Shown here: positions 26,846 through 36,621 of the stretch, piece after piece
How positions within the stretch are numbered: the stretch's first letter is position 1
Layout of the letters: the number at the start of each line of letters is the position of its first letter
DNA from: an uncultured Chlorobiaceae bacterium
Lineage (GTDB): Bacteria; Bacteroidota; Chlorobiia; Chlorobiales; Chlorobiaceae
Reading direction: 5' to 3'
NCBI GenBank assembly: GCA_903824295.1
Contig: CAIJWE010000122.1
Span: 1-36,621 of the forward strand
DNA length: 36,621 bases
Made by a program: the position numbers and the translations under genes
Notes under the pieces: generated by a model
What the model was told of the DNA's origin: nothing
What the model saw: only the letters and a program-made list of their open reading frames with translations
The model's database searches: none

Positions 26846-29845
26846 ATGACAACAGAAAACCAGACCGAGCAAGGCCTGATAGACAAGCTTAAAGATCTCA
26901 AATACAGCTACCGCCCCGACATTCGTGACCGGGCCGCGCTCGAAAAAAACTTCCGCGAAAAGTTCGAAGCCCTCAACCGGGTACACCTCACCGACGCCGA
27001 GTTTGCCCGGCTGCTCGACCTGATTGTCACCCCCGACGTTTTCGCCGCCTCTCGTCATCTGCGCGAACGCAACAGCTTCGACCGCGACGACGGTACACCA
27101 CTCTTCTACACTCTGGTCAACATCAGGGAGTGGTGCAAAAACAGCTTCGAGGTCGTCAACCAGCTCCGCATTAACACCAACAACAGCCATCACCGTTACG
27201 ACGTGCTGCTCCTCATCAACGGCGTGCCGGTGGTTCAGATCGAGCTGAAAACCCTCGCCATCAGCCCGCGCCGCGCCATGCAGCAGATCGTCGAGTACAA
27301 AAACGACTCCGGCAATGGCTACACCAAAACCCTGCTCTGCTTTTTGCAGCTCTTCATCGTCAGCAACCGCACCGACACCTGGTACTTCGCCAACAACAAC
27401 AGTCGCCACTTCAGCTTTAACGCCGACGAGCGCTTTCTGCCGCTCTACCAGTTCGCCGGAGAGGACAATAAAAAAATCACCCATCTCGACAGCTTCGCCG
27501 AAAAGTTCCTCGCCAAATGTACCCTCGGCGAAATGATCAGCCGCTACATGGTGCTGGTATCGAGCGAGCAAAAGCTGGTGATGATGCGCCCCTACCAGAT
27601 CTATGCCGTCAAGGCTATCGTGGAGTGCATTCACCAGAACAGCGGCAACGGCTACATCTGGCACACCACCGGTAGCGGCAAAACCCTCACCTCCTTCAAG
27701 GCATCAACCCTGCTCAAGGACAACCCGGATATCGACAAATGCCTCTTCGTCGTAGACCGCAAAGACCTCGACCGGCAGACGCGGGAGGAGTTCAATCGCT
27801 TTCAGGAAAACTGCGTCGAAGAAAACACCAACACCGAAACCCTGGTGCAGCGGCTGCTCTCCGACGACTATGCCAATAAGGTCATTGTCACCACCATCCA
27901 GAAGCTCGGCCTTGCCCTCGATGGCACCAACAAGCGCAACTACAAGGAGCGGCTCGAATTGCTCCGTCACAAGCGCATGGTCTTCATTTTTGACGAATGC
28001 CACCGCTCCCAGTTCGGCGAGAACCACAAAGCCATCAAAGAGTTTTTCCCCAACGCCCAGCTCTTCGGCTTCACCGGCACACCAATTTTCCCGGAAAACG
28101 CCACCTATCAGCAGATTGAAGGGCAGCAGGCCACCTGGAAAACCACGGAAGAGATTTTCCAGCAGCAACTGCACGCCTACACCATTACGCACGCCATCGA
28201 AGACCGCAACGTCCTGCGCTTTCATATTGACTATTACAAGCCCGAAGGCAAAAACACGCCCAAGCCGGGTGAAACGCTGGCCAAAAAAGCCATTGTCGAA
28301 GCCATACTCCAAAAACACCAGACCGCCACCTACGGGCGCAAGTTTAACGCCCTTCTGGCCACCGCCTCCATCAATGACGCTATAGCCTATCATGACCTCT
28401 TCAACACCATGCAGGCAGAGAGAGAAGCCAAAGATGGTAACTTCCAGCCTCTGAACATTGCCTGCGTCTTTTCCCCGCCCGCACAGGCTACTACGGGTGA
28501 TGGCGGGAATCGAAACGAAAAGAATGTGGCCGACATCCGGCAGCTCCAGGAAGATCTGCCTCAGGAAAAGGCCGACAACGAGCAAGCCCCCGACGAAAAA
28601 AAGGCGGCCCTCAAAGCCATCATTGCCGACTACAACGCCCGCTACGGCACCAACCACCGCATCGACGAATTCGACCTCTACTACCAGGACATTCAAAAGC
28701 GCATCAAAGATCAGCAATACCCCAATCAGGACTTGCCGCACGCGCAGAAAATCGACATCGTCATCGTGGTCGACATGCTGCTTACTGGTTTCGACTCCAA
28801 ATTCCTCAACACCCTCTACGTCGACAAAAACCTCAAGTACCACGGGCTCATTCAGGCCTTCTCACGCACCAACCGCATCCTGAACGGCACCAAGCCCTAC
28901 GGCAACATTCTCGACTTTCGCCAGCAGAAGATGGCGGTTGATGCTGCTATCACCCTCTTTTCCGGCGAAAAAGCCGACCGCGCCAAAGAGATCTGGCTGG
29001 TTGACAAAGCGCCGGTTGTTATCGGCAAACTTGAAACCGCCGTGAACAAACTGGGTGAATTCATGCTCTCTCAGGGGCTCGAAAGCGCCCCGCAGGAGGT
29101 GATGAACCTCAAGGGCGACGCCGCACGCGGCCAGTTCATCAACCTCTTCAAAGAGGTGCAGCGCATCAAAACCCAGCTCGACCAATACACCGACCTGACG
29201 CCTGAAAATGCCGCCAGCATCAGCCGGGTCATCCCGACAGAGCAATTGCAAGCCTTCCGTGGTGTCTATCTTGAAACCGCCCAGCGCCTGAAAGAAAAGC
29301 AGAAAAAAGGCAGTGACGCCCCCGAAGCAGAACAACTCGACTTTGAATTTGTGCTCTTTGCCTCAGCCATGATCGATTACGACTACATCATGTCGCTGAT
29401 TACAACATACTCGCAGCAAACACCCGGCAAACAGAAGATGACCCGCACCGAGCTCATCGGCCTCATCGACTCCGAGGCCAACCTTCTTGAGGTGCGCGAA
29501 GATATCGCCGACTATATCGGCACCCTCAAGTCAGGCGAAGGGTTGAAAGAGAGCGACATCCGTCAGGGTTACGAAACCTTCAAGGCCGAAAAGAGCGCTC
29601 AACAACTGGCCGACATTGCCGGTAAACACGGGCTCGAAACCGCAATCCTCCAGGCCTTTGTGGACGCCATCATACAGCGCATGATCTTCGACGGCGAACA
29701 CCTGACCGATCTGCTCGCCCCGCTCGGGCTCAACTGGAAAACGAGAAGGCAAAAAGAGCTTGCGCTGATGGAAGAGCTGATTCCCGTGCTGCACAAACTC
29801 GCACAAGGTCGCGAAATCTCAGGTCTGGAGGCGTATGAGCAATAA
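26846..29845 (+). CDS. hsdR: Type I restriction endonuclease R subunit (EcoR124-like)
   Basis: Motor and nuclease subunit of the second type I system; it translocates DNA and cuts far from the site. The 999 residues have the nuclease set D119 ... E133-x-K135 (RYDVLLLINGVP, VQIELKT). Walker A is HTTGSGKT (273-280), the DEAD-like box is DECH (383-386), FTGTPIF follows, and motif VI is FSRTNRI. The C-terminus (about 830-999) looks like EcoR124_C. The start ATG at 26846 has no visible Shine-Dalgarno sequence. Codons end in C far more than in nearby chromosomal genes. Its last 11 bases overlap the hsdS start. Confidence 0.94.
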   Translation: MTTENQTEQGLIDKLKDLKYSYRPDIRDRAALEKNFREKFEALNRVHLTDAEFARLLDLIVTPDVFAASRHLRERNSFDRDDGTPLFYTLVNIREWCKNSFEVVNQLRINTNNSHHRYDVLLLINGVPVVQIELKTLAISPRRAMQQIVEYKNDSGNGYTKTLLCFLQLFIVSNRTDTWYFANNNSRHFSFNADERFLPLYQFAGEDNKKITHLDSFAEKFLAKCTLGEMISRYMVLVSSEQKLVMMRPYQIYAVKAIVECIHQNSGNGYIWHTTGSGKTLTSFKASTLLKDNPDIDKCLFVVDRKDLDRQTREEFNRFQENCVEENTNTETLVQRLLSDDYANKVIVTTIQKLGLALDGTNKRNYKERLELLRHKRMVFIFDECHRSQFGENHKAIKEFFPNAQLFGFTGTPIFPENATYQQIEGQQATWKTTEEIFQQQLHAYTITHAIEDRNVLRFHIDYYKPEGKNTPKPGETLAKKAIVEAILQKHQTATYGRKFNALLATASINDAIAYHDLFNTMQAEREAKDGNFQPLNIACVFSPPAQATTGDGGNRNEKNVADIRQLQEDLPQEKADNEQAPDEKKAALKAIIADYNARYGTNHRIDEFDLYYQDIQKRIKDQQYPNQDLPHAQKIDIVIVVDMLLTGFDSKFLNTLYVDKNLKYHGLIQAFSRTNRILNGTKPYGNILDFRQQKMAVDAAITLFSGEKADRAKEIWLVDKAPVVIGKLETAVNKLGEFMLSQGLESAPQEVMNLKGDAARGQFINLFKEVQRIKTQLDQYTDLTPENAASISRVIPTEQLQAFRGVYLETAQRLKEKQKKGSDAPEAEQLDFEFVLFASAMIDYDYIMSLITTYSQQTPGKQKMTRTELIGLIDSEANLLEVREDIADYIGTLKSGEGLKESDIRQGYETFKAEKSAQQLADIAGKHGLETAILQAFVDAIIQRMIFDGEHLTDLLAPLGLNWKTRRQKELALMEELIPVLHKLAQGREISGLEAYEQ

Positions 29846-31175
29846 GATGGATGCAACGACTATGACACAAGCAATAAGACGCGAATTGAAGCCCAGGCTA
29901 AGGTTTCCTGAATTTCAGGATGCTGGGGAGTGGGTAGAAATCAAGCTTATAGATGTTACTAATAAAAAAATAAAGTGGAGTTTTATTGGTGGCCCATTTG
30001 GCTCAAATCTTAAGTCATCTGATTACGTTGCTCATGGCATTAGAATAATACAGTTGCAAAACATCGGGGATGCTCAGTTTCATGATGATTACAAAATATT
30101 TACAACAGAACAGAAGGCAGATGAACTTCTAAGCTGCAACATATATCCAGGCGAGATTATTTTATCGAAGATGGGTGATCCTGTAGGTCGAGCATGCTTA
30201 ATACCGAACAAGCATGCAAGATACCTAATGTGTTCAGACGGGATACGACTTGTTATTGATGAGCAACTGTTTAGTAAATATTTTATTTATTCATTGATTA
30301 ACTCTATTTATTTTAGAGAGTTAGTAGAGAAGACGGCTACAGGATCTACCAGAAAAAGGATTGGCCTTGACGATCTAAAAAATCTGCCAATGGTGGTTCC
30401 AAAGTTAAAAGAGCAACAAAAAATCGCCGACTGTCTTTCATCCATCGACGACCTGATCACCGCCCAAACCCAAAAGCTCGCCGCGCTCAAGACCCGCAAA
30501 AAAGGGCTGATGCAGCAACTTTTCCCGGCAGAAGACGAAACCTTGCCCAAGCTGCGCTTTCCCGAATTTCGGGATGCGCCGGAGTGGGATCTAAAACCAC
30601 TTGACAAGATATGTGAAATAAAAGGCGGAAAGAGAATCCCTAAAGGATTTTCACTGACCAATGAAAAAACAGACTACCCTTACGTTAGGGTAAGTGATAT
30701 GTACATGGGAGGAATCGATACATCTTCTGTGTTATATGTCCCAAGCGAGATCGAGAAGCAAATAAGAAATTACAAAATATCAAAAAACGACTTGTTTATA
30801 ACTGTTGCTGGGACAATCGGAATTGTAGGAGAAGTTCCCGAAGAGTTAGATAATGCCAATCTCACTGAAAATGCCAATAAGATTGTATTGAAAAGTATAG
30901 GAAAGAAATATTTGTTGCACTATTTAACAGGAGAGTCTGCACAACAGCTTATATCTTCTTCTGTTACCAATAATGCTCAACCGAAGTTGGCTCTGGAGCG
31001 GATAAGGCTTTTTCCAATACCAGTTCCATCCCCAGAAGAGCAACAAAAAATCGCCGACAGCCTTTCATCCATCGACGAACTGATCATCGCCCAAACGCAA
31101 AAGCTCGACACGCTCAAAACCCATAAAAAAGCACTGATGCAGCAGCTCTTCCCGGCAATTGATAGCAAGGAGTAA
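29835..31175 (+). CDS. hsdS: Type I restriction specificity subunit
   Basis: Recognises the bipartite DNA target and scaffolds the M and R subunits. The 446 residues show the classic two-fold layout: variable TRD1 (about 30-190), a conserved helical repeat (about 193-232), TRD2 (about 250-395) and a second conserved repeat (about 402-441). The repeats read EQQKIADCLSSIDDLITAQT and EQQKIADSLSSIDELIIAQT and both end in LMQQLFPA. The TRDs are AT-rich while the repeats match the GC-rich hsdR/hsdM, so the target domains look exchanged. CTGGAGG at 29824-29830 serves the start, which overlaps hsdR. It is followed directly by the PIN toxin gene rather than hsdM. Confidence 0.93.
   Translation: MSNKMDATTMTQAIRRELKPRLRFPEFQDAGEWVEIKLIDVTNKKIKWSFIGGPFGSNLKSSDYVAHGIRIIQLQNIGDAQFHDDYKIFTTEQKADELLSCNIYPGEIILSKMGDPVGRACLIPNKHARYLMCSDGIRLVIDEQLFSKYFIYSLINSIYFRELVEKTATGSTRKRIGLDDLKNLPMVVPKLKEQQKIADCLSSIDDLITAQTQKLAALKTRKKGLMQQLFPAEDETLPKLRFPEFRDAPEWDLKPLDKICEIKGGKRIPKGFSLTNEKTDYPYVRVSDMYMGGIDTSSVLYVPSEIEKQIRNYKISKNDLFITVAGTIGIVGEVPEELDNANLTENANKIVLKSIGKKYLLHYLTGESAQQLISSSVTNNAQPKLALERIRLFPIPVPSPEEQQKIADSLSSIDELIIAQTQKLDTLKTHKKALMQQLFPAIDSKE
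30411..30530 (+). repeat. hsdS conserved repeat, copy 1 (120 bases)
   Basis: This 120-base stretch encodes the central conserved helix of HsdS. It starts with GAGCAACAAAAAATCGCCGA, as does copy 2 at 31038, and ends in CCGGCA. Its last 75 bases (from 30456) recur downstream at 31807, outside hsdS. Confidence 0.85.
31038..31157 (+). repeat. hsdS conserved repeat, copy 2 (120 bases)
   Basis: Same length and phase as copy 1 and largely identical to it. It forms the C-terminal conserved helix of HsdS. Its wording (CTCGACACGCTCAAAACCCA) is the likely source of the decayed fragment at 32614. Confidence 0.85.
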
Positions 31176-31178
31176 CCA

Positions 31179-31607
31179 ATGAAACTCTATCTTGATAACT
31201 GCGTGTTTAACCGACCTTTTGATACACAATCAAACATCAAGACGTTGCTGGAAACAGAAGCCAAGCTGAACATTCAGGAAAACATCCGACGAGGAAACCA
31301 TGAACTGGTTTGGTCATATATCCTTGATTATGAAAATTTAAAAAACCCTTTTCAGGAAAGACAGGAGCAAATTGCAAAATGGAAGCAGTATGCTAAAATC
31401 GAGATCAAGGCAGAGGATAGTCTCATTCAACGGGCAAAGTCACTTAAGGAATCAGGGTTGAAATCCTTTGATGCTTTGCATATTGCTTGCGCGATTACGG
31501 CAGGAGCAGAGTATTTTTTGACGACAGACAAGGGAATTCTTAAAAAAGCAGCAATCATTCATGATATTCAGATCAAAAACCCTATAGACTTCATCAGAGA
31601 GGTATAA
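31179..31607 (+). CDS. PIN-domain toxin (VapC-like ribonuclease)
   Basis: A 142-residue PIN-domain protein, predicted to be a metal-dependent ribonuclease toxin. The acidic site is visible: D6 in MKLYLDNCVFNRPFD, the Asp of SFDALHIACA and the Asp of TTDKGI, placed as in VapC-like proteins. The ribosome-binding site AAGGAG overlaps the hsdS stop, and the ATG comes three bases after that stop, so it is co-translated with hsdS. The next gene, two bases downstream, is its likely antitoxin. The gene splits the usual hsdS-hsdM order. Confidence 0.85.
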   Translation: MKLYLDNCVFNRPFDTQSNIKTLLETEAKLNIQENIRRGNHELVWSYILDYENLKNPFQERQEQIAKWKQYAKIEIKAEDSLIQRAKSLKESGLKSFDALHIACAITAGAEYFLTTDKGILKKAAIIHDIQIKNPIDFIREV

Positions 31608-31609
31608 AC

Positions 31610-31810
31610 ATGATTACCGACACAGAAATCAGGGTCAAAGGCATTCAAATTCTTGCCCAATATTTGGGTGACATTGAAATGGAGCGTTTTATCGCGTTGA
31701 TTCAACGAGAACCTTTCGACTATACCCAGTGGCGAGAGAGCATGGAGCAAGAGGAGAGCGTTGAAGAGATCAGCCGAAAAGCAATGGCGCACACTAAAAA
31801 TCAGTTATGA
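31610..31810 (+). CDS. Antitoxin partner of the PIN toxin
   Basis: A 66-residue acidic helical protein: VKGIQILAQYLGDIEMERFI followed by REPFDYTQWRESM. This kind of protein is regularly coded directly after (or before) PIN-domain genes of this type, as I recall, and is taken as the antitoxin. No DNA-binding motif is obvious. Its stop overlaps the start of the hsdS-tail mini-frame (ATGA at 31807-31810). Its last 44 bases (31767-31810) are repeated, in altered form, right before hsdM at 34022. Confidence 0.75.
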   Translation: MITDTEIRVKGIQILAQYLGDIEMERFIALIQREPFDYTQWRESMEQEESVEEISRKAMAHTKNQL

Positions 31811-31902
31811 CCGCACAAACCAAAAAGCTCGCCACGCTCAAAACCCATAAAAAAGGGCTGATGCAGCAGCTTTTTCCGGCAATGGAGGAGGTATCAAGCT
31901 AA
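31807..31902 (+). pseudogene. Detached hsdS 3' end as a 31-codon mini-frame
   Basis: The 75 bases 31807-31881 match hsdS 30456-30530 with about nine substitutions. The open frame reads MTAQTKKLATLKTHKKGLMQ and on through QLFPA, the HsdS conserved helix. It starts in an ATGA overlap with the antitoxin and ends in a TAATG overlap with the kinase gene. GGAGGAG at 31885-31891 serves the latter. It may be only a hsdS scar that carries the kinase's translation start, or a made peptide. Confidence 0.8.
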
Positions 31903-32420
31903 TGGACAAAAAAATCATCATTATCGCCGGACCCAATGGCGCAGGAAAAACCTCTTTTGCCCGCACGTTTCTGCCAAAAGAAGCTCAATGCCTGCGCTTC
32001 ATCAATGCCGATCTCATTGCCGCCGGGCTGTCACCCTTTGCCCCTGATGTGGCTGCCATCAAAGCAGGACGGGTAATGTTGGAAGAGATTGCCGCCTGTG
32101 TGCGACGTGAAGAAAGTTTCGCATTTGAAACCACCCTATCCGGACTGGGTTATTTGAGGCATATCCAGCAATGGCGCGCTCATGGCTATTTGGTTAGCAT
32201 CTATTTTCTGGCGTTACCCAATGTCGAAACGGCCATTGCCCGTGTAGCGGAGCGCGTTCGCCAGGGAGGGCATAATATTCCTGAACCAGTAATCCGCCGC
32301 CGTTTTATAGCGGGATTGCGTAACTTTGAGCAACACTACAAAGCCGCAGTAAATGCCTGGGCTAAATACAACAACTCCGGAGAGACACCGGTCTTGTTAG
32401 AATGGGGAGAAAACTTATGA
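31902..32420 (+). CDS. Zeta-toxin-like P-loop kinase
   Basis: A 172-residue ATP-binding protein. Walker A is IIIAGPNGAGKTSFARTF (residues 6-23). FINADLIAAGL matches the zeta-toxin/PezT motif with the catalytic-site Asp, and FETTLSG is the family's substrate-side stretch. R-rich segments later (RVAERVRQGGHNIPEPVIRRR) fit the lid. Zeta toxins phosphorylate UDP-N-acetylglucosamine; related short kinases without a known target are common, so the substrate is open. The start overlaps the hsdS-tail mini-frame and the stop overlaps the next gene (ATGA at 32417). Confidence 0.85.
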   Translation: MDKKIIIIAGPNGAGKTSFARTFLPKEAQCLRFINADLIAAGLSPFAPDVAAIKAGRVMLEEIAACVRREESFAFETTLSGLGYLRHIQQWRAHGYLVSIYFLALPNVETAIARVAERVRQGGHNIPEPVIRRRFIAGLRNFEQHYKAAVNAWAKYNNSGETPVLLEWGENL

Positions 32421-32617
32421 GCTCAAAAGATATTTCCACGGCTAAAGACCCAGCCATGCGCGCTTCAATGGCCGCCATGAAACGAGCCGCCGCATTAGCT
32501 CGTGAAACCGCTATTCAGACGAATACCAATATCGTGATTGTGGAAAATGGAAAAGTGGTGCGGATTTCAGCCGAAGAACTGCGCCGCCAAGCATCCGAGG
32601 AAGCAAAAAAATCATGA
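32417..32617 (+). CDS. Small partner protein of the zeta-like kinase
   Basis: A 66-residue protein from the ATG at 32417 (MSSKDISTAKDPAMRASMAA), with GGGGAGA at 32404-32410 as ribosome-binding site. An earlier ATG at 32402 lies inside the kinase gene. The first half is Ala-rich helix; the second reads NIVIVENGKVVRISAEELRR, a beta hairpin plus helix. Such short proteins accompany zeta-like kinases as putative antitoxins. Its second half is repeated at 32927-33002. Its TGA overlaps an ATG of another hsdS scrap at 32614. Confidence 0.7.
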   Translation: MSSKDISTAKDPAMRASMAAMKRAAALARETAIQTNTNIVIVENGKVVRISAEELRRQASEEAKKS

Positions 32618-32671
32618 CCGAAAAAAATTAAAAGCTCGACACGATCAAGATTCATAAAAAAGCACTGATGC
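32614..32671 (+). pseudogene. Second detached hsdS 3' scrap
   Basis: After ATGACCG comes AAAGCTCGACACGATCAAGA and TCATAAAAAAGCACTGATGC, a close match to hsdS 31098-31139 (copy 2). The frame is broken: the ATG here stops after four codons. As with the copy at 31807, it begins in an ATGA overlap with the antitoxin-like gene before it. Confidence 0.75.
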
Positions 32672-32712
32672 GAGTAGTCGCCATGTACAATGAGCGTTTA
32701 GAGTAAATCACT

Positions 32713-32943
32713 ATGTCAATCAACGACCTTTTGCCCTCCGTAGCCACCCTGTCACATGCCGATAAATTCAGGTTAGTGCAAATTCTTCTCGAACAATTGA
32801 CAAAGGAAGAGGGTTTTTCTGCTCAGCAAACACCAGTAACAGCCGAGACCTTTAACCCGCGCAGTTATTATGGAGTAGCTCATCAATCCCGACAAATGAT
32901 TGACGAGTATATCGCAAGCAGCCGGGACCAGTATCGTGATTGA
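32713..32943 (+). CDS. Small antitoxin-like protein (orphan)
   Basis: A 76-residue protein beginning MSINDLLPSVATLSHADKFR, then LVQILLEQLTKEEG: a helical N-terminus like small antitoxins coded before PIN or RelE toxins. The C-terminal part (YYGVAHQSRQMIDEYI) is not recognised. No toxin gene follows; instead the 3' end overlaps a scrap of another antitoxin (32936). No good ribosome-binding site is seen. It may be an antitoxin that has lost its partner. Confidence 0.6.
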   Translation: MSINDLLPSVATLSHADKFRLVQILLEQLTKEEGFSAQQTPVTAETFNPRSYYGVAHQSRQMIDEYIASSRDQYRD

Positions 32944-33046
32944 GAAAGATGGAAAAGTGGTGCGGATTTCAGTCGTAGAGCTGCGCCGCCAGGCATCCGA
33001 GGCAAAAGAGTCTATCAATCCCGAGCCTTCCAGCGAGGTCTTGTGA
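32936..33046 (+). pseudogene. Duplicate C-terminal half of the kinase-partner gene
   Basis: Bases 32927-33002 match 32525-32600 (76 bases, no gaps, about ten substitutions). The frame from GTG 32936 reads VIEKDGKVVRISVVELRRQA and runs on to a stop at 33046. The N-terminal half and a proper start are missing. It overlaps the last bases of the orphan antitoxin-like gene. Confidence 0.75.
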
Positions 33047-33127
33047 TTCATTGCAGGATACCCATGAGTTCCTATATTAACAGAAAACAGTGGACTCATT
33101 GAAATTCAGTTCAGCAGGGGATACACT

Positions 33128-33994
33128 ATGCTTTTAAAAGATCGTTACATAAACCCCTTTACCGACTTTGGGTTCAAGAAAATCTTCGGCTCTGAGGTCA
33201 ACAAAGATCTGCTGATAGCGTTTCTGAACACGCTCTTGCCTGCTGAAGCGGGGACCGTTTCCGACCTTTCCTTTTTGCCCAATGAGCAGGTAGGGCGGAG
33301 TGAGTACGACCGCAGGGCAATTTTTGACCTTTATTGTGAAAATGAAAAGGGGGAAAAATTTATTGTAGAGATGCAGCGGGCAAAGCAGAACTACTTCAAG
33401 GATCGATCGATATTTTATGCCACCTTTCCTGTTCAACAGCAGGCTCAGAGCGGATCGTGGAATTTCTGCCTGAAGTCGGTCTACATGGTTGGTATTCTTG
33501 ATTTCGTCTTTGATGAGGATAAAGCCGATAATGAGGTCGTTCACCATGAAGTAAAGCTGGTTGACCGTTCAACGGGGGCAGTTTTCTCCGACAAGCTTAC
33601 GTTTATTTACCTCGAACTTCCAAAGTTCACGAAAACGATTGATGAGCTTGTTACTGACTTCGACAAATGGTGCTTCCTTCTTCGCCACCTGCCTGAGCTG
33701 ACTGACCGCCCGGCTTCTCTTCAGGAGAGGGTCTTCCTCAAGGTATTTGAACTGGCAGAAATTGCAAAGTATTCGAGTGTGGAAGCGGCAGCTTATGAAG
33801 AGAGCCTCAAGGTTTATCGTGACCTGAAGAATGTTGTCGATACCGCTTATGATGAGGGCAAGGCAGAGGGGATTGTCGAGGGTAGCCAGCAAAAAGCCAT
33901 GGAAGTTGCAAAAAGGCTTAAAGAGTCAGGTTTAGATATCGAAACGATTTCACGTTGTACTGGTCTGCCGGTTACTCTTGTGGATGGGTTGTAG
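33128..33994 (+). CDS. Rpn/PD-(D/E)XK nuclease-family transposase-like protein
   Basis: A 288-residue protein of the PDDEXK nuclease group often annotated as Rpn family recombination-promoting nuclease or putative transposase. It begins with the family's INPFTDFGFKKIFGSE. The active-site set is D in AIFDLYCEN and E-x-Q in FIVEMQRAKQN. The N-terminal nuclease domain is followed by a helical C-terminus with DEGKAEGIVEG and a small LKESGLDIETISRCTGLP tail. Family members move or reshuffle DNA rather than being classic insertion sequences. I see no terminal inverted repeats around it. It lies between the toxin-antitoxin scraps and hsdM. Confidence 0.85.
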   Translation: MLLKDRYINPFTDFGFKKIFGSEVNKDLLIAFLNTLLPAEAGTVSDLSFLPNEQVGRSEYDRRAIFDLYCENEKGEKFIVEMQRAKQNYFKDRSIFYATFPVQQQAQSGSWNFCLKSVYMVGILDFVFDEDKADNEVVHHEVKLVDRSTGAVFSDKLTFIYLELPKFTKTIDELVTDFDKWCFLLRHLPELTDRPASLQERVFLKVFELAEIAKYSSVEAAAYEESLKVYRDLKNVVDTAYDEGKAEGIVEGSQQKAMEVAKRLKESGLDIETISRCTGLPVTLVDGL

Positions 33995-34021
33995 TCGGGG
34001 TTTGCGCTCCCTCACTTGGAC

Positions 34022-34066
34022 AGATCAGCCAGAATAGCAATGGAGTACACTAAAAATCAGTCATGA
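34022..34066 (+). pseudogene. Second copy of the PIN-antitoxin 3' end, ahead of hsdM
   Basis: Bases 34022-34079 match 31767-31822 with one inserted base and a few substitutions. In frame it reads AMEYTKNQS, against AMAHTKNQL at the end of the antitoxin. Its TGA (34064-34066) overlaps the hsdM ATG exactly as the intact antitoxin overlaps the hsdS scrap, so hsdM was once directly downstream of such an antitoxin gene. Confidence 0.75.
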
Positions 34067-35694
34067 CCGAACAAAACCAGAAACAAATGGGCACTATCCT
34101 CTGGGGTATTGCCGACCAACTGCGCGGAGCCATGAATGCCGACGACTTCCGCGACTACATGCTCTCCTTCCTCTTTCTTCGCTACCTCTCCGACAACTAC
34201 GAGGCAGCAGCAAAAAAAGAGCTCGGCACCGATTTCCCTGATAACCGGGAGCAGCCAGGTACCACGCCGCTGCAACTCTGGTACAACAACAATCCCGGCG
34301 ATAGTGCTGAATTTGAAAAACAGATGCGCCTCAAGGTGCACTATGTCATCCAGCCGCAATACCTCTGGGGCAGCATTGCCGAAATGGCTCGCACGCAGAA
34401 TGGGGAGTTACTCCATACCCTGCAAAAAGCCTTTGATTACATTGAGAACGAATCCTTTGCCAGCACCTTTCAGGGTTTGTTCTCCGAAATCAACCTGAGC
34501 TCGGAAAAACTTGGCAAGCACTATACCGATCGCAACGCCAAACTCTGCACCATCATCACCAAAATTGCCGAGGGGCTGGCAGGCTTTTCAACCGACAGCG
34601 ACACCCTTGGTGATGCCTACGAATACCTGATCGGTCAGTTTGCCGCCGGTTCCGGCAAAAAAGCGGGTGAGTTCTACACCCCGCAGCAGATCTCCAGCAT
34701 TCTCTCAGCCATTGTCACGCTCGACAGTCAGGAGCCAGCCACCGGCAAGAAAAAATATCTGATCAGTGTGCTCGATTTTGCCTGCGGTTCCGGCTCGCTG
34801 CTGCTCAATGTGCGCAAGAAAATGGGGCAGTATGGCATTGGCAAAATCTACGGTCAAGAGTCCAACATCACCACCTACAACCTCGCACGCATGAACATGC
34901 TGCTGCACGGTGTGAAAGATTCCGAGTTTGAAATTTTCCACGGCGATACCCTCCTCAACGACTGGGAGATGCTGCGCGAAGCCAACCCCGCCAAAAAGAA
35001 GCACTTTGATGCGGTGGTGGCCAATCCACCCTTCAGCTACCGCTGGGAACTCACCGACGCCTTGGGCGACGACGTCCGCTTCAAAAACTACGGCCTCGCC
35101 CCCAAATCCGCCGCCGACTTCGCCTTTCTCCTTCACGGCTTCCAATACCTCGCCAAAGAGGGCACTATGGCCATCATCCTCCCTCACGGCGTCCTCTTCC
35201 GTGGCGGTGTAGAAGAGCGCATCCGCACCAAACTGCTCAAAGACGGCCACATCGACACCGTCATCGGCCTCCCCGCCAACCTCTTTTTCTCCACCGGTAT
35301 TCCAGTCTGCATTCTGGTGCTCAAAAAATGCAAGAAGCCCGACGACGTGCTCTTCATCAACGCCAGCGAACACTTCGAAAAAGGTAAACGCCAGAACCGC
35401 CTCCGGCAGGATGATATCGATAAAATTGTTGAAACCTATCAATACCGTAAAGAAGAAGAGCGCTACTCCCGCCGGGTCTCAATGGCCGAAATTGAATCCA
35501 ACGGCTACAACCTCAACATCTCCCGCTACATCAGCACCGCCACAGCAGAAGAAGAGATCGACCTCACGGCACTGCACGCAGATTTACTCAACCTCGAAGA
35601 GCGAATTGTCAACGCCACCAACAAACACAACGAGTTTCTCAAAGAGCTTGGGTTGAATCTTTTACCGATTGGAATTCTTGAACAAGGTATATGA
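34063..35694 (+). CDS. hsdM: Type I DNA methyltransferase M subunit
   Basis: N6-adenine methylase that modifies the host site together with HsdS and forms the core of the restriction complex. An N-terminal helical HsdM_N domain (MGTILWGIADQLRGAMNADD, and FLFLRYLSDNYE) is followed by the methylase fold. FYTPQQISSIL precedes D238-FACGSGSLL (S-adenosylmethionine binding) and the catalytic NPPF lies at 321-324. Length of 543 fits the EcoR124 family, as does its HsdR partner. It overlaps an antitoxin remnant at its start and the next small gene at its stop (ATGA). C-ending codons dominate, as in hsdR. Confidence 0.95.
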   Translation: MTEQNQKQMGTILWGIADQLRGAMNADDFRDYMLSFLFLRYLSDNYEAAAKKELGTDFPDNREQPGTTPLQLWYNNNPGDSAEFEKQMRLKVHYVIQPQYLWGSIAEMARTQNGELLHTLQKAFDYIENESFASTFQGLFSEINLSSEKLGKHYTDRNAKLCTIITKIAEGLAGFSTDSDTLGDAYEYLIGQFAAGSGKKAGEFYTPQQISSILSAIVTLDSQEPATGKKKYLISVLDFACGSGSLLLNVRKKMGQYGIGKIYGQESNITTYNLARMNMLLHGVKDSEFEIFHGDTLLNDWEMLREANPAKKKHFDAVVANPPFSYRWELTDALGDDVRFKNYGLAPKSAADFAFLLHGFQYLAKEGTMAIILPHGVLFRGGVEERIRTKLLKDGHIDTVIGLPANLFFSTGIPVCILVLKKCKKPDDVLFINASEHFEKGKRQNRLRQDDIDKIVETYQYRKEEERYSRRVSMAEIESNGYNLNISRYISTATAEEEIDLTALHADLLNLEERIVNATNKHNEFLKELGLNLLPIGILEQGI

Positions 35695-35897: not shown

Positions 35898-36621
35898 ATG
35901 TTCAACGATATCCCATATTGGAAAGTAAACAGGGAAGAGCGGTTCTTCTGCTTCTTATTTGCTCATGCCCTTTTGTCGTCGAGAACCATCAGAGTTGGTT
36001 TTGCTGAACTTGCAAAAAGAAAGTGTGATATAGCGCTTGATCCCGATGAACTTGAGGTCTATGTTGAAGTAGCTGCGCTTCGAGATTATTGGTACGACCT
36101 TGGCAATCCTGCCAAGTATTCAGATGAAACCCATGACAAGAGAAGAACTGTTCTGGAGCAAATTTTAAAGATTCGTGAAGTTGATCCGGGAATGCTTGAC
36201 AAACACGACCTCTTCTGGACATCCTCGAATAAAAAGAAGCTCTGGTGCCCGAGCCATTGGGGAATAGAAGAACTGAAAAATGCTGGCATGGAAAAACTTA
36301 AAGAGGTGCGCTGGGCTTTCCACGCCAAGCCGGACATTCTGCTGGTCTCCCCAAAAACAATGCTGGTTATCGAAGCCAAACTCGAATCCGGCGAAGGCCG
36401 AAAAGACAAAACCGGTTATAAACAGTATGAAATTCAGGAGTTGATTGTTGACTTATGGAAGCAACTTATACCAGAATTCCAACAGCGGAAGCTTGCCCAA
36501 GCCAGGCTGGAAGTCAAAGGCACGGGCAATAACACCATCACCTGGGCAGACATTCTCGCAATAATTGCTGATTCCGATATTGACGCTTTCACCCGAAACG
36601 CCCTTGATCAACTCAAAAAGT
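35898..36621 (+). CDS. Predicted PD-(D/E)XK nuclease downstream of hsdM (partial, runs off the end)
   Basis: Open from ATG 35898 to the window end (241 codons, no stop). The N-terminal 135 residues (MFNDIPYWKVNREERFFCFL onward) are mostly helical and not recognised. Then HAKPDILLVSPKTMLVIEAKLESG gives D146, E159 and K161, the PD-(D/E)XK nuclease core. KYNPxx-style follow-up is replaced by GRKDKTGYKQYEIQELIVDL with a conserved-looking Gln-rich helix. It starts 15 bases after the previous stop, in the same direction as hsdM, so it is probably part of the defence island. It may be a type IV-like or accessory nuclease. Confidence 0.72.
   Translation, partial: MFNDIPYWKVNREERFFCFLFAHALLSSRTIRVGFAELAKRKCDIALDPDELEVYVEVAALRDYWYDLGNPAKYSDETHDKRRTVLEQILKIREVDPGMLDKHDLFWTSSNKKKLWCPSHWGIEELKNAGMEKLKEVRWAFHAKPDILLVSPKTMLVIEAKLESGEGRKDKTGYKQYEIQELIVDLWKQLIPEFQQRKLAQARLEVKGTGNNTITWADILAIIADSDIDAFTRNALDQLKK

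Follow-up and report, generated by a model that had tools for sequence, protein, structure and literature searches.

A duplicated antitoxin gene end in a Chlorobiaceae type I restriction-modification operon as a probable mark of cassette recombination between hsdS and hsdM

A type I restriction-modification (R-M) operon of an uncultured Chlorobiaceae bacterium carries the 3' end of a small antitoxin gene twice, once in an intact PIN-antitoxin cassette and once directly in front of hsdM. This repeat is probably the mark of recombination between alleles of a single hypervariable slot in an operon of the order hsdR-hsdS-x-hsdM (R-S-x-M), in which cassettes have been swapped and stacked. The whole stretch of DNA that was analysed, 36,621 nucleotides long, is called the window here. 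An earlier reading based on its sequence only had interpreted the repeat as the two edges of one inserted or duplicated block of about 2.2 kb, at 31823-34021. The following features of the window are used throughout:

26846-29845, + strand: hsdR, type I restriction subunit, 999 aa (Pfam HSDR_N, EcoR124_C and T1R_D3-like; PADLOC REase_I)
29835-31175, + strand: hsdS, specificity subunit, 446 aa (Methylase_S; conserved repeats at 30456-30535 and 31083-31162)
31179-31607, + strand: PIN-domain toxin of cassette 1 (PF01850, E 7.6e-7, 30.2 bits against a cut-off of 23.6)
31610-31810, + strand: intact antitoxin of cassette 1, 66 aa, its TGA overlapping the ATG at 31807
31767-31822, + strand: copy A of the repeat, 56 nt, opening with AGATCAG (31767-31773)
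31807-31902, + strand: scar 1, an hsdM start (ATGACCG) fused in frame to an hsdS 3' tail, 31-aa ORF MTAQTKKLATLKTHKKGLMQQLFPAMEEVSS
31902-32420, + strand: zeta-toxin-like kinase of cassette 2, 172 aa (PF06414, E 6.4e-9)
32402-32617, + strand: partner of the zeta kinase, a putative antitoxin, its TGA overlapping the ATG at 32614
32614-32673, + strand: scar 2, a decayed hsdM-start/hsdS-tail fusion reading MTEKN*KLDTIKIHKKALMR, with an undecayed form in G050
32713-32926, + strand: orfX, antitoxin-like, standing before an intact VapC in G013
32927-33050, + strand: second copy of the zeta-partner 3' end (89% identity), fused to orfX
33128-33994, + strand: rpn, PD-(D/E)XK Rpn-family nuclease/putative transposase, 288 aa (PF12784, E 4.8e-73; TIGR01784 above cut-off)
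33995-34028, + strand: 3' flank of rpn, ending in AGATCAG (34022-34028), from the alignment with G012, G019, G027 and G030
34022-34079, + strand: copy B of the repeat, 58 nt, a relic of the antitoxin 3' end followed by the true hsdM start
34063-35694, + strand: hsdM, type I methyltransferase subunit, 543 aa (N6_Mtase, HsdM_N; TIGR00497 above cut-off)

The three R-M genes all look intact and form one operon, as expected of a type I system. Its order is hsdR, hsdS, PIN, antitoxin, hsdS-tail scrap, zeta kinase, partner, second hsdS-tail scrap, orfX fused to the second partner end, rpn, antitoxin relic and hsdM. The scrap noticed earlier at 31807 is a genuine piece of hsdS, with copies of the hsdS repeat at 30456, 31083, 31807 and 32614. 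A search of solved structures gave no close match for the PIN protein and just a weak one, to a Pnkp1 chain, for the zeta-like kinase. The 66-aa antitoxin, without any family match in Pfam or NCBIfam, accompanies PIN in the window, G030 and G018. The partner, with nothing above cut-off in Pfam, stays with zeta in Chlorobiaceae and in five further loci (L096, L108, L131, L132 and L134). The rpn product is assigned to the Rpn family by scores above cut-off for TIGR01784/PDDEXK_2.

The match between the two copies of the repeat is confirmed, with 51 of 58 aligned columns identical. Instead of the one inserted base reported previously there are two single-base gaps, one inside the antitoxin part and one past ATGACCG. 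Copy B reaches a local score of 40 against 31100-34021, while 200 shuffles of that region peak at 19, and in a search of the bacterium's own genome (G000, 2.85 Mb) the segment 34016-34083 matches 31740-31910 with E = 1.4e-13. Outside the locus, this genome holds no match to the antitoxin end comparable with the pair. Both copies end in ...CAGT(T/C)ATGACCG, with the ATG overlapped by a TGA as the earlier reading had described (at 31807 and at the hsdM ATG at 34063). In copy A this TGA is the stop of the intact antitoxin; copy B is without an antitoxin start and is a relic.

That the antitoxin end once lay directly 5' of hsdM, as had been proposed, is supported by comparison with two relatives. 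In G010, the antitoxin passes into hsdM without a gap, its frame being disturbed. In G018, just an IS intervenes: the element is located within the final antitoxin bases, and the leftover CTAAAAATCAGTC leads into hsdM, giving the order S-PIN-antitoxin, IS, TAAAAATCAGTCATGACC-hsdM. The hsdM side of copy B probably derives from a G010-like antitoxin-hsdM allele, because both have one more base behind AGATCAGCC and read ATGGAG in place of ATGGCG.

The two junctions differ from those expected at 31822 and 34021. On the right, copy B starts at 34022 with exactly AGATCAG. The sequence flanking rpn on its 3' side in G012, G019, G027 and G030 is CTTGGA(C/T)AGATCAG, with about 60 more bases of flank before the antitoxin tail is reached; in the window, the flank switches at AGATCAG straight to the antitoxin end, so that 34022-34028 appears as a 7-bp crossover. 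On the left, 31807-31821 is the fusion of scar 1, in which ATGACCG of the hsdM type is followed by an hsdS tail. This tail corresponds to the true hsdS end found directly 5' of zeta in G014 and G050, and joining a donor S-PIN-antitoxin-M to a recipient S-zeta-...-M at scar 1 gives the left junction that is observed. Only some 7 bases of scar 1 are of the hsdM type, and one substitution in the hsdS tail, ATC to ATG, could imitate them. The same scar is present in G030, and its stop overlaps the zeta ATG. Microhomology of the hsdM start with the hsdS repeat was considered as strong statistical proof and dropped, since 50 of 500 shuffles reach the same level of similarity; with the C-terminal hsdS repeat, the hsdM start does not fall on the best diagonal.

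Among the genus mates searched, 15 have an hsdM of the window's kind, as do further members of the phylum; the antitoxin and its end fragments are found mainly within the genus. For comparison, hsdS-hsdM intervals were fetched from relatives and the pieces of the window were mapped onto them. Their make-up differs in nearly every genome compared:

G014: S-zeta-partner-M
G013: S-orfX-VapC-partner-M
G043: S-DUF559-like-orfX-partner-M
G010: S-orfX-partner/antitoxin-M
G018: S-PIN-antitoxin-IS-hsdM fragment-DUF1016-like-M
G050: S-zeta-partner-scar-orfX remnant-antitoxin-hsdM fragment-M
G030: S-PIN-antitoxin-scar-zeta-partner-rpn-tail-hsdM fragment-M
G051: S-orfX/partner-hsdM fragment-rpn-tail-M
G019: S-DUF559-like-orfX/partner-rpn-tail-M
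G027: zeta-partner-rpn-tail-M
G056: rpn-tail twice, then M

The DUF559-like, DUF1016-like and IS labels in these genus mates were read from translations; scores for DUF559 and DUF1016 themselves come from homologous slots elsewhere. Compared with orfX-VapC-zeta partner of G013, G051 shows a deletion between 13-bp repeats, joined at ATACCAATATCGT. The resulting orfX/partner-end fusion of G051 is like the one at 32927-33050 in the window.

Fusions of an hsdM start to an hsdS tail (M'/S') also occur beyond the window. The chimera between cassettes in G050 reads MTEQNQK|LDTLKTHK, in frame, and in G018 and G030 an M'/S' chimera with in-frame internal losses lies 5' of a DUF1016-like gene. Further chimeras, likewise placed between cassettes, were read in a Lentisphaerae MAG (L092, MTESHQKQMGNTLWN|TAQTQKLEALKVHKKGLMQQLFPAP) and a Magnetococcales MAG (L106, MTEQDQKQLGKTLWAIADQLHGAMNADDFR|MFKTHKKGLMQQLFPALDETSA). 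Counting G018/G030/G050 once and grouping scar 2 with G050, all five independent chimeras are in frame, for which the chance is (1/3)^5, about 0.004, five being a small sample. Remnants of one kind alone were found in six loci, namely an hsdM start 5' of a RhuM gene in L122 and G200, an hsdS tail 5' of a later cassette in L126, L140 and L199, and an M' or S' remnant in L073. In the junctions read, the remnant frame usually closes with a TGA over the next ATG. A plasmid search with two scar peptides returned hsdM starts or hsdS tails only and no complete chimera, a search for scars across the phylum yielded one addition, G200, with M' alone, and no further complete chimera, and among viral contigs ten hsdM loci yielded one S' remnant of interest (L199). 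The in-frame chimeras suggest that each cassette may once have lain between an hsdS and an hsdM of its own, in the slot occupied in other bacteria by the anticodon nuclease PrrC.

The repeat, its junctions, the chimeras, the alternative arrangements in relatives and the one loss between 13-bp repeats can be combined into a proposed course of events. In related R-S-x-M operons, x is usually a single suicide gene, most often PrrC, with its stop over the hsdM ATG; in this genus, x is a variable assortment of toxin-antitoxin cassettes, namely PIN-antitoxin, zeta kinase-partner, orfX-VapC, DUF559, DUF1016 and rpn. Copy B would be the 3' end of an antitoxin formerly located directly 5' of hsdM, and AGATCAG (7 bp) the point at which it became linked to an allele carrying rpn. 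Copy A would belong to an intact PIN-antitoxin cassette from an S-PIN-antitoxin-M allele. An in-register fusion between the hsdM start of this allele and the hsdS end of an S-zeta allele presumably placed a second cassette upstream and left the in-frame M'/S' scar. Such exchanges may proceed by short-homology recombination of alleles, in which one long stretch of homology in hsdS or hsdM is combined with a short joint (3 to 13 bases), either as homology-facilitated illegitimate recombination (PMC6382021) or as tandem duplication followed by deletion. Translational coupling, with ribosomes passing between genes through ATGA overlaps, might keep the scars in frame. By analogy, the cassettes are proposed to be suicide modules, and they would serve as fall-back modules of the R-M system.

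A variant of the recombination of slot alleles dispenses with incoming DNA and attributes the scars to deletions inside once longer tandem S-x-M repeats. A deletion from one hsdM into the next hsdS would leave M' followed by S', and G013 and G051 document loss between 13-bp repeats within the slot. However, none of the loci read contains two whole S-x-M units in tandem, and this version is possible but rather doubtful.

It is unlikely that the Rpn nuclease/transposase itself moved the block, or entered an antitoxin 5' of hsdM and left its tail behind. The idea draws on the annotation of the Rpn family as recombination-promoting nuclease/putative transposase and on the position of rpn, which borders the antitoxin relic in the window and in seven other genomes. 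It was rejected because rpn copies elsewhere have the gene in common and not the downstream flank; moreover, transposon-type flanking repeats are absent and the same scars occur in arrays without rpn (G050, G018, L092 and L106).

Quite improbable, too, is the model of the sequence-only reading, in which PIN-antitoxin-hsdM is ancestral and 31823-34021 came to lie inside it as a single insertion or duplication that copied the antitoxin end. This segment does sit between both copies, and G010 provides the adjacency that the model starts from. Yet the segment is a composite of an M/S chimera, the zeta kinase pair, a second chimera, an orfX/zeta-partner hybrid, rpn and the rpn flank, and these parts occur separately and in other combinations in relatives. 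Its left junction is the hsdS-tail chimera, and no empty site corresponding to 31822/34021, as a single transposon-type insertion would have, was found among the relatives compared. The join rpn-antitoxin tail-hsdM is common to G012, G019, G027, G030, G051 and G056 and decayed in G003. Since the tail between rpn and hsdM starts at about antitoxin position 108-120 in all seven genomes, the join is old and shared; these breakpoints were used for the history of the tail in place of a tree, for which the tail is too short to be useful. In G019 and G051, with a complete hsdS-hsdM interval and no intact antitoxin, the antitoxin end occurs once, beside rpn-hsdM, a pattern that the sequence-only reading had itself named as contradicting it. 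In addition, the intact antitoxin 3' end of the window is 98, 95 and 93% identical at the nucleotide level to the copies in G030, G050 and G010, while the two copies of the window are just 83% alike, a divergence that alone is not decisive because a relic may decay faster than a working gene. From the shared join, the intervals of G019 and G051 and these identities it follows that the intact cassette and the tail have separate histories in the operon, and the case against a single block is carried by the shared breakpoint and by the two genomes without an intact copy. A duplicated gene end need not mark the limits of a single inserted block. An assembly artefact is hardly credible: most Chlorobiaceae relatives are draft MAGs in many contigs and some junctions could be assembly errors, yet the same junctions recur in separate genomes that have diverged from one another, and unrelated phyla carry chimeras too.

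Outside Chlorobiaceae, hsdS and hsdM are at least 100 bases apart in 60 of 62 loci (median 1120), and in 37 of the 62 an open frame from upstream overlaps the ATGA of hsdM. The 78 slot ORFs include AAA_13 (27), RhuM (10), YhcG/DUF1016 (YhcG, 9), zeta (3) and PIN (2), as well as Fic and DUF559; the one AAA member examined is PrrC (E 1.4e-134). An E. coli IncC plasmid has R-S-anticodon nuclease-M with the same 4-base overlap. Recombination of slot alleles may extend further, and we tentatively put forward as a serious possibility that R-S-x-M loci of several phyla are cassette-stacking loci, in which suicide modules of the PrrC slot are exchanged and accumulated via hsdM starts and hsdS tails, and in-frame HsdM-N/HsdS-C micro-ORFs are left behind and maintained by selection for translational coupling. 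If so, each new cassette would remain expressed together with the R-M system and answerable to it, and suicide defence modules would have a marked and readable docking site beside hsdM, with scars that record the order of module acquisition. The content between hsdS and hsdM would then offer a simple route to new fall-back defence genes and a way to test the stacking of defence genes without a dedicated integrase.

The slot itself is known, and the cassette stack with its scars appears new, as no description was found in the open-access papers that were searched. PrrC is kept silent by its R-M enzyme and released by a phage anti-restriction peptide (PMC2610378, PMC3874165). EcoprrI/PrrC, a type IC R-M system with an embedded anticodon nuclease, is similar in that its hsd operon, of type I as well, includes a suicide gene, and PrrC of R-S-x-M relatives occupies exactly this slot with an ATGA overlap onto hsdM (PMC2610378, PMC3874165). 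As PrrC does, the effectors of the window adjoin hsdM inside the operon; unlike EcoprrI, its slot is without an ABC-ATPase anticodon nuclease and contains PIN, zeta and Rpn genes, several in a row, with small partners of their own. In Campylobacter jejuni, variable genes lie between hsdR and hsdS (rlo) and between hsdS and hsdM, the latter named mlo (Miller 2005, as cited in PMC5183652). The likeness is one of ORF position between hsdS and hsdM, whereas the genes of the window are recognisable toxin-antitoxin cassettes parted by hsdM/hsdS remnants. With VapBC/PIN modules the window shares a PIN-domain toxin and a small neighbour gene, but here the toxin gene comes first and the antitoxin falls outside the families of the libraries used. 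The kinase has the Zeta_toxin domain and Walker A motif (GPNGAGKTS) of PezT-like zeta toxins, although it is short (172 aa) and its partner is no recognised epsilon/PezA protein. Homology-facilitated illegitimate recombination combines one homologous arm with joints of 3-10 bp (PMC6382021), comparable to AGATCAG and ACCG in the window; it is known from laboratory transformation, whereas in the window the junctions point to it.

Several further observations were made in these loci. In the unrelated bacteria of L203 (G200), L122 and L106, an hsdM-start remnant is followed by RhuM in the hsdS-hsdM slot, and RhuM of L106 is the PADLOC candidate PDC-S05. L160 (G056:C63, 7894-9958) contains two successive units of rpn and antitoxin tail with an ATPase-like gene fragment between them. 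In L150 (G018:C173, 1392-2707), the IS interrupting the last bases of the antitoxin has CTAA on both sides and a transposase frame in pieces. The DUF559-like genes of the slot in L148, L151 and L157 are flanked by short recurring sequences encoding ...PPLEGWQAKPDGVV..., and together with them look like a small mobile unit. L242 (G003:C4, 6842-9235) is a collapsed operon, in which the hsdR start is joined to zeta, rpn and the antitoxin tail are retained and hsdM is cut down to its two ends. Finally, a frame 3' of hsdM in the window, at 35898-36621, runs off its end and has a weak match to NERD (nuclease-related).
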